Assembly (NCBI GenBank): GCA_028874175.1 | Contig: JAPPLN010000001.1 | Location: 26,296-90,295, forward strand | Direction: 5' to 3' | DNA: 64,000 bases | Origin: Chloroflexota bacterium | GTDB taxonomy: Bacteria; Chloroflexota; UBA11872 | Shown: positions 7,019 to 64,000 of the stretch, piece by piece | Numbering within the stretch: position 1 is the first letter of the stretch | How the letters are laid out: the number at the start of each line of letters is the position of its first letter | Program-made: the position numbers and the translations under genes | Notes under the pieces: generated by a model | Database searches by the model: none | Seen by the model: only the letters and a program-made list of their open reading frames with translations | What the model was told of the DNA's origin: nothing

Positions 7019-8389
7019 ATGACGAGCCGGCAGCGCTACGCGGCGCTGGCTCTTGTGGTTGTCGCGGTGATCGGCGCCATCGCATTGATCGAGATCGTGG
7101 TATCGCCGCCCGACCCGACCGTCGGCGTTGGGCTGCCGGGCGCCGATGAGGCCCGGACATCCGCTCCAGCTGCCGAGACCCCTGTGCCTACCCAGGCGAT
7201 CGCGGCGGCGACCGTCGCGGCCACACCTCGCGCGCCAGCCGCCAGCGCGCTTACGCCCGCACCGGTGGCGCCGACGCCGGCCACCAGCGCACCGACGGCC
7301 GCGACCGGTGCGCCTATGGTGGTAACCAGTACGCCGGCACCTGTCACTGGTGAGCCCACACCGGATCCCACGCCGCAGGTGGTCGTCGGCCATCTACCCG
7401 AGTTACCGGTCATTGGCACCGCGCCCGAATTCGCTGGTATTACCGCGTGGCTCAACAGCGAAGTTCTGACGATGGACGAGTTGCGCGGGCGTCCGGTACT
7501 CATCGACTTCTGGACCTTCGGCTGCATCAACTGCGTCCGCACGCTGCCGCACGTTCGCGCCTGGCACGACGCCTATTCACCACACGGGCTGGTAATCGTC
7601 GGCGTGCACACGCCGGAGTTCAGGCACGAGTATGAGGAAGCGAACGTGCGCCAGTCGCTGCCGTCACGCGGCGTGATCTGGCCGGTCGCGATGGACAACG
7701 GCTACAAGACCTGGCGTGCCTACAACAACCGCTTCTGGCCGCACAAGTTCCTCATCGACCAGGAGGGGCAAATCCGCTTTCACCACATCGGCGAGGGTGC
7801 CTACCAGGAGACTGAAAAGGCGATCCGCGCGCTGCTGGCTGAAGCTGGAACCGACCTTTCCCACATCCCGCTTTCGAGCGCGTCCATCCCACACAAGGTG
7901 ACGCCCTCGCCGTCGACGGGACCTCGATCGCTCTTCGCGGGGAGCGGTTTCGCCTTCGGTTCCTACCTCGGCAACCCGGTCGGAACGCCCGAGGATGGGG
8001 CGCGCGTGTTCACCGACAACGTTGAGCACAATGCCGAGCGTCTCTATCTGGACGGACGCTGGGACTGGGTCCCGAATGCCGCCTTGGCGCTGCCCCAGGC
8101 CGAGCAGATTGCGCGCGTCAGCGTTCCGTTCCACGCCCAGAACGTATCCGCGAGCTTCGGCGCCTCCGGCGACGGGCCCGTTCGCGTGGCTGTGACGGTC
8201 GACGGCCAGCCGATTCCGACCGACCGTCAGGGCGGCGACGTACTGACCGGCCCTGACGGCCAGACGCACCTGCTCGTGGACCAGTTCCGTCTGTACGACA
8301 TCCTTCGTAACGGCGCGGAAAGCGTTGGCGAACTGCAATTCACGATTGCCGAACCCGGGTTGGCCATATACGCCATCTCGCTCACGTAG
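7019..8389 (+). CDS. membrane-anchored thioredoxin/redoxin protein, DipZ-like C-terminal domain
   Basis: N-terminal TM, Ala/Pro/Thr-rich linker, DFWTFGCINCVRTLPH (CxxC), C-terminal ARVSVPFHAQNVSASF.. DipZ-type domain. Confidence 0.85.
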   Translation: MTSRQRYAALALVVVAVIGAIALIEIVVSPPDPTVGVGLPGADEARTSAPAAETPVPTQAIAAATVAATPRAPAASALTPAPVAPTPATSAPTAATGAPMVVTSTPAPVTGEPTPDPTPQVVVGHLPELPVIGTAPEFAGITAWLNSEVLTMDELRGRPVLIDFWTFGCINCVRTLPHVRAWHDAYSPHGLVIVGVHTPEFRHEYEEANVRQSLPSRGVIWPVAMDNGYKTWRAYNNRFWPHKFLIDQEGQIRFHHIGEGAYQETEKAIRALLAEAGTDLSHIPLSSASIPHKVTPSPSTGPRSLFAGSGFAFGSYLGNPVGTPEDGARVFTDNVEHNAERLYLDGRWDWVPNAALALPQAEQIARVSVPFHAQNVSASFGASGDGPVRVAVTVDGQPIPTDRQGGDVLTGPDGQTHLLVDQFRLYDILRNGAESVGELQFTIAEPGLAIYAISLT

Positions 8390-31568: not shown

Positions 31569-32732
31569 TTAGACCGGTTCCGTCCCCTCCATCAGGTCGG
31601 ATAGGTAGCGGTCATACGCAAAGAGCCGGTTTCGGCGCCTACCGGTCAATTCACGGGCGACTTCAAGCTCGACGAGCAGGCTCATCGCTGATGAGACGGC
31701 CGGTATCGAGAGGCCGGTCGCGTTTGCAGCGCTGGTGATTGAGTGGATGGGACGACTTTTGAGCGCTTCGTGGACCCGTGAAGCTGAACCCGCACGGCGA
31801 CCTGTCCGCTCAATCGTCATTCGGTCCTTCGTGAACATGGCTTCCAGACGCTCAACATCTGCGACTGCCTCCGTGGCAACGTGCCGCACCCCGTCGAAAA
31901 AGAACTCGAGCCAAGCTTCCCAGTCCCCCTCATGCCGCACGCGATTCAGCAGGTCGTAGTAGGCCGCGCGGTGCTGCTTGAAGTACAGGCTGAGATAGAG
32001 CAGGGGCTCGCGAAGTACCCCGCCGTGATGAAGCAGAAACGTGATCAGGAGACGGCCGACACGTCCATTGCCGTCCAGGAATGGGTGAATGGTCTCGAAC
32101 TGAACGTGCGCCAGTCCAGCTCGAACCAGCAGCGGCAATCCATCTTCCTCCGCGTGAAGAAAGCGCTCGAGCGCCGTCATGCAGTCGGGGACGGCAGTGT
32201 GGGGCGGCGGCACGAAGCGTGCATTGCCTGGCCGCGTTCCTCCGATCCAGTTCTGCGAGCGCCGGAACTCGCCCGGATCCTGTTCACTGCCGCGCCCGCG
32301 TGAGAGCAGTACGCCGTGAATCTCCCGAATCAACCGGTTCGAGAGCGGGAAGTCCGCACGCAGGCGCGTGATGCCATGGTCAAGCGCTGCGACATAGTTA
32401 GACACCTCGGCCACATCGTCGCTTGGCACGCCCGGCGCTTGGTCAAGTTCATGAAGCAGCAGGTCCGAGAGCGAAGACTGCGTGCCCTCGATTTGCGAGG
32501 ACAGCACCGCCTCTTTGCGAACGTAGCTGTAGATGAAGAAGTCGGGATCCGGCAGCAGCGTCGTGATGCTGTCGAGGCGTCCCAGCGCGAGTAGCGCCTG
32601 CTCCAGCTCCTGTTGCAGCTTCCCGTCGAGCGCAAGCGGTGGGGCTGGCGGCAAGGGGAAGGGCACAAACGCGTCAAACTGTTCGCCGACCGTGGCCGAA
32701 CTCTGATATCGGCCAGTGACGCCGCGTTTCAT
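31569..32732 (-). CDS. Fic family protein with N-terminal inhibitory motif and C-terminal winged-helix region
   Basis: HPFLDGNGRVGRLL (HPFx[D/E]GN[G/K]R), SSQIEGT ([S/T]xxxE[G/N]), C-terminal HTH-like segment. Confidence 0.93.
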   Translation of the reverse strand: MKRGVTGRYQSSATVGEQFDAFVPFPLPPAPPLALDGKLQQELEQALLALGRLDSITTLLPDPDFFIYSYVRKEAVLSSQIEGTQSSLSDLLLHELDQAPGVPSDDVAEVSNYVAALDHGITRLRADFPLSNRLIREIHGVLLSRGRGSEQDPGEFRRSQNWIGGTRPGNARFVPPPHTAVPDCMTALERFLHAEEDGLPLLVRAGLAHVQFETIHPFLDGNGRVGRLLITFLLHHGGVLREPLLYLSLYFKQHRAAYYDLLNRVRHEGDWEAWLEFFFDGVRHVATEAVADVERLEAMFTKDRMTIERTGRRAGSASRVHEALKSRPIHSITSAANATGLSIPAVSSAMSLLVELEVARELTGRRRNRLFAYDRYLSDLMEGTEPV

Positions 32733-61824: not shown

Positions 61825-62070
61825 CTAGACCTGGGGCCACACGCCCTCGCGAGTCCACCCGGCAAGCTCAGCGCCTAGCGCGTCGGCATCGTCGTAGCCC
61901 GCGCGATAACGAAGGGCAATGTCCTCCGCATCCTTCCGTGCCAGGTACGTGGCCGCCGCCTCCCGCAACACCGCCGAACGGCCCCGCTCCCGCACCGCAG
62001 GATCCCGGTCCAGCCGCTCCAGCAGCGCCTCTTCAAACGTCACCTGGATAGCTTTCATGTCCATCAGCAT
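61825..62070 (-). CDS. ribbon-helix-helix (CopG/MazE-like) antitoxin
   Basis: MKAIQVTFEEALLERLDRDPAVRERGRSAVLREAAATYLARK...LAGWTREGVWP. Confidence 0.75.
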   Translation of the reverse strand: MLMDMKAIQVTFEEALLERLDRDPAVRERGRSAVLREAAATYLARKDAEDIALRYRAGYDDADALGAELAGWTREGVWPQV

Positions 62071-62206
62071 CCCATATCGACAATTCACATCCTCATCCTG
62101 TATTGAGTTCCCACGCCTCTCCAATTCCGCCCCCACTCATCCCGACAGCCCGCCTGAATGTGTAAACCATGTATCCGGTCTGGACAGGAAAGGTGGTTGA
62201 AGCCTG

Positions 62207-62300: not shown

Positions 62301-63773
62301 CTACAGCCCACTCACCTTCACCGTCGAGACCCGGCGCTCAGCCAAGTGCACCCGCCGCACCACGTGGTTATTCGTATCCGCCACAAACAGCACCCCGTCC
62401 GCCAGCGACACCCCGCCCGGCTCATGAAACCTGGCCTCCGCCAGCCCGCCGTCCGCGTCCCCGTGCTCCGTATCCCCCGCAAACGACGTAATCAGTCGTC
62501 CAGCCGGATCCACCGCCTTGAGCTTGTTGTTGTACGTATCCGCGATAAACACGCCCTCCGCCCCCGCTGCCACCCCCAGCGGATGCTGCAACCGGATCGA
62601 CGTCCCCTGCCCGTCCACGTCCCCAAAGTCGAATAGCCCCACGCCCGCGATCGTCCGCGCGTCGCCCCGACCGTCCAGCGGCAACGTGCGAATCGCGCTC
62701 GTCTCGCTATCCGCCACCAGCAGACGGTCCCCGTGCACCGCCAGCCCGCTCGGCTGCGCCAGCTGCGCCGTGTCCAGCGGCCCGTCCTGCAAATTCTCGA
62801 TCCCCGAGCCCGCGTACGGCCCAACCATCCCGTCCGCCGGATCCATCGCCCAGACCTGGTGCATCCCCGCCATGGCGATGAACAGCCGCCCGTCGTGCCA
62901 GGCCAGATCCCACGGTGAGGCCAGTTCGGCTGTTGCCGCGGGGTGCGACCCCGGCGCCGGATACCCCCGAGCCCCCGTCCCCGCCACAGTCGACACCTCG
63001 CCCGATCCAAGGTCGATCCGACGAATCCGGTGGTTCTCCGTATCCGCCACATATAGGTCGTCGCCAACCACCGCCAGCCCCTGCGGATACGTAAACCGCG
63101 CCTCGGAGGCCGCCCCGTCCCGGTGCCCCTCCTCCGACGACCCGAACACTCGCCGCACCGCGCCCTCGTGGTCCGTCTCGATAATCCGGTGATGCCCCGA
63201 GTCCGCGATATACAGCGCGTCGCCGGTCGCCAGCACCTTCCCTGGAAACGCCAGCCCCGTCTCCGAGTCCGGCGCCCGCTCCATCACGTCCAGCGGCGCA
63301 TCCGTCACCACGCCATTCGGCCGGTGCTCGTTCAGGATGCGCGTCACTGCCCGGTCCAGCGCCTCGAACGGTGCCTCGCCCGAATGAAACCCGATCACGT
63401 GCCCCAGCGGGTCCACAAACACCATCGTCGGCCACGCCCGCACCCCGTACGTCTGCCAGATCTGGAAATCCCGGTCATTCACCACCGGGTGCTCCAGCCG
63501 GTGACGCCGCGCCGCGTAGCGCACATTGAAGGTCTCGCGCTCCGCCGGGAACTTCGGCGTGTGCACCCCCACCACCGCCAGCGCCGGACCATGCTTCTCT
63601 TCGAGTTTCCGCAACTGCGGAAATAGCTGCAGGCAGTTAATTCAGCAGAACGTCCAGAAGTCCAGGATCACCAGCCGGCCCTGCAGGTCCGCCATGCGAA
63701 CCGGCCGCCGCGTATTGGCCCACTCCAACCCCTCCGGAAACTCCGGCGCCGGAATCGGCGTCTGCGTCGCCAT
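62301..63773 (-). CDS. thioredoxin-like NHL-repeat protein, candidate selenoprotein (UGA at codon 44 read as Sec)
   Basis: ATG at 63773; frame MATQTPIPAPEFPEGLEWANTRRPVRMADLQGRLVILDFWTFC-[TGA]-INCLQLFPQLRKLEEKHGPALAVVGVHTPKF... then NHL repeats (GLAVVGDDLYVADTENHRIRRI). Confidence 0.75.
63606..63623 (-). promoter_or_regulatory. Candidate bacterial SECIS hairpin
   Basis: Minus-strand RNA UUUCCGC-AGUU-GCGGAAA, perfect 7-bp stem starting 19 nt after the UGA, G at second loop position. Confidence 0.6.
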
Positions 63774-64000
63774 CCACCCACCCTCCAATCATCCCTCCCC
63801 AGTCTCCCACGCCCCCGAACATTCATGGCTTGTGGCCCAGGCTGCGCGCAGCCTGGGACCTCCCCAACCCGTTCGTCGTGAGCCGGCCTGAAGTCTGTCG
63901 AAGAGCCTGCTCCGAGCCCGTCGCGGAGCCTGCCCTGAGTTCGCCGAATGGGGCCCGAGTAGAGCCACATCCGTCAACCCACCTGCAACCCAGCGCCGTC

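Follow-up and report, generated by a model that had tools for sequence, protein, structure and literature searches.

The minus-strand frame 62301..63773 of the analysed stretch of 64,000 nt (the window) is very probably a genuine selenoprotein gene, i.e., we assign a probability of about 0.96 to the reading that its UGA at codon 44 is decoded as selenocysteine (Sec). According to this reading, SelB and Sec-tRNA(Sec) would translate UGA44 under the direction of a SECIS hairpin that directly follows it. The product would be a cytosolic protein that joins a thioredoxin-like domain carrying a UxxC centre to an NHL propeller (Trx-NHL), orthologous in architecture to NHLRC2 and SOQ1. The features of the gene are as follows.

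62301..63773, minus strand: CDS of the predicted Trx-NHL selenoprotein, 490 aa, UGA44 = Sec; single frame with one TGA, full-length match to SOQ1 (7djj) and NHLRC2 (6gc1)
63782..63786, minus strand: GGAGG, Shine-Dalgarno-like, 8 nt before the ATG at 63773; read directly from the sequence
63369..63752, minus strand: thioredoxin-like domain, residues about 8-135; Pfam Thioredoxin_8 39.6 bits, AhpC-TSA 33.9 bits
63642..63644, minus strand: TGA codon for the putative Sec44, first redox position of UxxC; the same codon is TGA in 62/62 distinct homologues with an in-frame stop and TGC/TGT in 91 others
63633..63635, minus strand: TGC, Cys47, second (resolving) Cys of UINC; the second CxxC Cys, in every motif listed
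63606..63623, minus strand: bacterial SECIS hairpin UUUCCGC-AGUU-GCGGAAA with its apical loop at 63616..63613, 25 nt after the UGA; assigned from position, energy, covariation, and slid and shuffled controls
63612..63614, minus strand: TTG taken as the start by the ORF track, in fact Leu54, which gives the UU of the SECIS loop; TTG at that codon in 60/62 TGA genes
62304..63257, minus strand: NHL-repeat beta-propeller, residues about 173-490; Pfam NHL 107.4 bits, aligned to the SOQ1 and NHLRC2 propellers

Reading frame and conservation of the TGA

The frame comprises 490 codons and is opened by the ATG at 63773. A previous inspection of the letters (the sequence-only reading) had stated that the ORF track starts the gene at 63614 although the same frame continues up to this ATG. 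Both statements are borne out by the translation, and the TGA at codon 44, located within DFWTFC-U-INCLQLFPQL, is the only stop in the frame, with no further interruption behind it. The placement of the TGA on the first Cys of CINC, made by comparison with the paralogue at 7019..8389, also holds: the paralogue reads LIDFWTFGCINCVRTLPH, such that its Cys is aligned to the TGA. The homology of this paralogue to the window protein is distant and confined to the Trx part (37% over 143 aa). The family motif CCINC, named in the sequence-only reading, is found at the same place in NHLRC2 and SOQ1 and becomes C-U-INC here. Since no signal sequence is evident in the 490-aa product, a cytosolic role is likely.

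We then related the gene to its homologues at several taxonomic levels. Within the class, a match over the full length, either intact or split, occurs in 24 genomes; each of them shows exactly one internal stop, which is a TGA. Among 399 sampled Chloroflexota genomes (as grouped by the search tool), we found the TGA form in 57 and, in 23, a Cys form covering the thioredoxin domain; each of the 57 has exactly one in-frame stop, always TGA. Combining the Chloroflexota genomes with GTDB species genomes and removing duplicates resulted in 153 distinct genes, whose codon-44 column holds TGA in 62 and TGC/TGT in 91 cases, i.e., the TGA/Cys alternation that had been suggested as a check is indeed present in the relatives. 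The 62 TGA genes stem from several phyla, show identities down to about 45-50% and have no second stop. Because all of them share their sole TGA at this codon, its position is not due to chance. In all 91 genes without the TGA, the aligned residue is Cys. Carriers of the TGA form include Sphaerobacter, Thermomicrobiaceae, an Ardenticatenia MAG, a Planctomycetota MAG (L109) and an unassigned MAG (L088); no relative was found among viral contigs.

When the trait residue is masked, a FastTree tree implies at least 9 swaps between Sec and Cys; no direction is assigned to these swaps, and the deep forks of the tree are weakly supported. The residue preceding Sec is C in most Sec forms and G or A in some. 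Given this variation, we consider the UxxC rather than the vicinal pair as the constant centre.

Selection was assessed using 11 species of the genus with 93-95% protein identity. The dN/dS ratios of 0.06 for the 43 codons before the UGA and of 0.11 for the 439 codons after it indicate that purifying selection is acting on both sides of the TGA. Codons +1 to +13 after the UGA are invariant across the 11 species, which holds for only 4 of 477 windows of that length. Close relatives that all carry Cys, together with relaxed selection on this copy, had been named as evidence against Sec; neither is seen, i.e., the TGA is shared and the selection is purifying.

Sec machinery, SECIS hairpin and alternative readings

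The genome of the window (3.3 Mb, 121 contigs) encodes the Sec machinery for which a search had been proposed: a tRNA-Sec with anticodon UCA (71 bits), selA (514 bits), a full-length selB (343 bits) and selD (L017 1429-2559, 376 bits). The latter is itself a selenoprotein gene with an in-frame TGA in GAG-U-ACKL. Elsewhere, TGA is an ordinary stop and ends 21 of 44 long non-overlapping ORFs of the window. When counting tRNA-Sec matches at E up to 1e-10, 48 of the 57 TGA-form Chloroflexota genomes have one. The remaining 9 are all fragmented drafts with either no match or weak ones that are probably tRNA-Ser-like, and all 9 have selA above the cut-off (479-561 bits). Neither tRNA-Sec nor selA is found in the Cys-form genomes G153 and G240. 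The co-occurrence with tRNA-Sec serves as a consistency check of little weight by itself, since 296 of the 399 sampled genomes have a tRNA-Sec.

For the hairpin, we used the published bacterial SECIS model, i.e., a loop of 3-9 nt with a G in its first two positions, an upper stem of 4-16 bp, a spacing of 16-37 nt and an energy of at most -7.5 kcal/mol (PMC13188914). The window gene fits these constraints with loop AGUU, 7 bp, a spacing of 25 nt and -9.3 kcal/mol, and 61 of the 62 TGA genes reach the energy threshold. The mean energy of the best hairpin is -11.9 kcal/mol for TGA genes compared to -6.1 kcal/mol for Cys genes (Mann-Whitney p 7e-16, treating the genes as independent despite their kinship). 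With the stem at its fixed place, 92% of the cells are paired, compared to 84% for column shuffles (maximum of 2000: 87%) and 37-69% when the stem is slid. Compensatory stem pairs among the TGA genes are G-C/C-G, U-A/C-G/G-C and U-A/C-G/U-G.

A stricter test, which demands at least 5 contiguous pairs at the fixed place as well as a loop G, is passed by 57/62 TGA genes and by 0/91 Cys genes, with 3.8/62 expected after synonymous recoding. Among the 5 failures, the hairpin of L109 (GGUC loop) is strong and differently spaced, and that of L088 is only weak. The loop is encoded by CAG-TTG, and its Leu codon is TTG in 60/62 TGA genes versus 10.6% of the other Leu codons there. At the loop codons, Sec forms mostly read PQLR, while the commonest Cys form is PDLK.

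For the window gene alone, plain folding of the 71 nt around the UGA shows no excess stability (z 0.46), its best hairpin is no more stable than in random synonymous recodings, and 32% of such recodings retain the stem at the fixed place. As this single hairpin is unexceptional, the case for a SECIS builds on family-wide position, conservation and covariation. The covarying SECIS adds support beyond the sequence-only reading, which had not looked for one.

These observations also bear on the alternative readings. One might suspect a Cys gene that was hit by a point mutation or misread in sequencing, or else a decaying pseudogene, since one base separates TGA from TGC/TGT and Cys forms are widespread. 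A sequencing error is excluded because the TGA is also present in the separate assemblies of eleven further species of the genus. The TGA is thus common to 12 species of the genus, and it recurs in the 62 distinct genes of several phyla; together with the purifying selection downstream of it and the covarying SECIS, this leaves next to no room for an accidental or decaying TGA. Equally hard to credit is that the TGA acts as a real stop and that the gene starts at TTG 63614, where the ORF track begins it, such that a 437-aa protein without the redox motif would be produced. The 43 upstream codons are conserved (see their dN/dS above) and can be aligned with the N-terminal part of SOQ1 and NHLRC2, while no Shine-Dalgarno-like sequence precedes TTG 63614, which is a Leu codon in the SECIS loop.

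Since more than an in-frame TGA is needed to identify the residue, the UGA might also be read as Trp, Cys or Gly by a suppressor tRNA or within a reassigned code. We consider this very improbable: TGA ends about half of the long ORFs of the window, the Sec machinery is complete, a SECIS is present, and Cys is aligned in all non-TGA homologues. That is, a selenoprotein with a UxxC redox centre, already put forward as the simplest reading, is supported by the machinery, the conserved TGA, the SECIS and the purifying selection.

Relation to NHLRC2, SOQ1 and known selenoproteins

NHLRC2 is essential in mammals and its mutation leads to FINCA disease; to our knowledge, no reaction of it is known. 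The window protein matches SOQ1 of Arabidopsis (7djj, E 3.7e-108) and human NHLRC2 (6gc1, E 1.1e-102) over its full length. All three share a thioredoxin-like domain followed by an NHL beta-propeller and are colinear over ~480 residues. The UGA falls on the second Cys of their CCINC, so the window protein would have Sec in place of Cys90 of NHLRC2. It ends with the propeller at residue 490 and thus lacks the C-terminal beta-stranded domain of NHLRC2 and SOQ1; the HAD domain and the membrane helix of SOQ1 are absent as well. The bacterial Trx-NHL family (L071, L088 and many Cys homologues) comes in two size classes of about 485-540 and 610-660 aa. The larger proteins may include the C-terminal domain of NHLRC2, for which homologues of 620-660 aa have sufficient length.

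Within the proposed UxxC centre, Sec44 would most likely be the attacking nucleophile and form a selenenylsulfide with the resolving Cys47. It is difficult to account for a Sec at exactly this position if the residue takes no part in redox or nucleophilic chemistry. Its presence argues that the CCINC motif is catalytic and suggests that the NHLRC2/SOQ1 family does redox chemistry. Weighing against this, NHLRC2 was inactive in an insulin reduction assay (PMC6107167), such that more than one type of chemistry may come into question. For SOQ1, the introduction of PMC10173003 still lists the redox activity of the thioredoxin-like domain as 'to be determined'. In the NHLRC2 crystal, thioredoxin domain and propeller have a cleft between them in which the motif lies (PMC6107167), pointing to the propeller as the part that presents a substrate or partner. 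In the window protein, this substrate or partner would accordingly be held by the adjoining propeller cleft. Across other genera, no conserved gene neighbours were found outside the gene itself, which likewise holds for other bacterial NHLRC2 homologues (PMC6107167). Because the neighbouring genes are not conserved, a partner is not readable from the operon. Just downstream of the gene, 61825-62136 (minus strand) encodes a small ribbon-helix-helix (CopG-type) protein.

Next, we compared the protein with described selenoproteins. Neither NCBIfam (June 2026), in which no model scores above cut-off for the Trx-NHL selenoprotein, nor Pfam contains a named Sec-containing Trx-NHL family. The same holds for the surveys of 2008, 2021 and 2022, in which 'NHL' is absent, and for a 2026 survey of prokaryotic selenoproteins, which lists 119 families, none of them named NHL, SOQ1 or NHLRC2 (PMC13188914); this search covered few subscription papers and no bioRxiv preprints. 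The closest known cases are Sec thioredoxins and Prx-like thiol:disulfide oxidoreductases (UxxC; PMC13188914 Table 1), which also combine a thioredoxin fold and UxxC with a bacterial SECIS right after the UGA. The window protein differs from them by belonging to another thioredoxin family and by its fused NHL propeller, a fusion not seen among the 119 families. The 'redoxin family protein' (PF08534, HEU0032618.1; PMC13188914) likewise has UxxC in a redoxin-like domain, but the window protein (P0001) scores 24.8 bits against PF08534, i.e., below the gathering cut-off of 26.6 bits. HEU0032618.1, which was compared by description only, may overlap with a truncated Trx-NHL protein. NCBIfam NF041054 (ResA-like WAxxUGC protein) resembles the window protein in having a ResA-like thioredoxin domain with Sec; the motif differs and the score is 17 bits against a cut-off of 300. 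The Trx-NHL selenoprotein family thus looks new, with its distinction from the 'redoxin family protein' given by description and Pfam score only.

On balance, we favor a broader interpretation, for which the odds appear reasonable though clearly below those of the gene assignment. Trx-NHL proteins with Sec at the Cys90 equivalent would form an undescribed selenoprotein family, common in Chloroflexota/Thermomicrobiota and scattered elsewhere. All members of the NHLRC2/SOQ1 family, the essential human protein among them, would be dithiol/selenol redox enzymes whose propeller recognizes the substrate, and the insulin assay would have missed their activity. Sec on the NHLRC2-equivalent Cys, repeatedly on the tree and at the same codon, provides evolutionary evidence for a catalytic redox centre, and the Sec forms make the catalytic question testable as they permit substrate trapping and 75Se labelling. 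With regard to annotation, the Leu TTG in the SECIS loop mimics a start such that a standard ORF track calls a shortened gene; in many genomes, the active site is therefore probably absent from the existing gene models.

Other observations in the window and its class

Searching the window for further frames bridged by a TGA close to a Cys resulted in 12 cases. The one that was followed up (33374) is antisense to a DUF2961 gene, and the remaining ones show no recognizable redox motif. The frame 31569-32732 (minus strand) encodes a Fic/DOC family protein (Fic_N and Fic domains). The paralogue at 7019-8389 (plus strand) is a Cys form with DFWTFGCINC; it has an N-terminal membrane or signal segment, a Pro/Thr/Ala-rich linker and a DipZ-like C-terminal domain (Thioredoxin_10, 51.9 bits).

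In genomes of the same class (G035-G040, family f5), we observed separate thioredoxin-only proteins of 190-230 aa (L204-L209) with a TGA at the same place (WTYG-U-INC). They have an apparent lipoprotein-like or Tat-like N-terminus, show GGUCUGG after the UGA where the SECIS loop would lie, and match no NCBIfam model above cut-off. Judged by these features, L204-L209 probably represent a second new selenoprotein.
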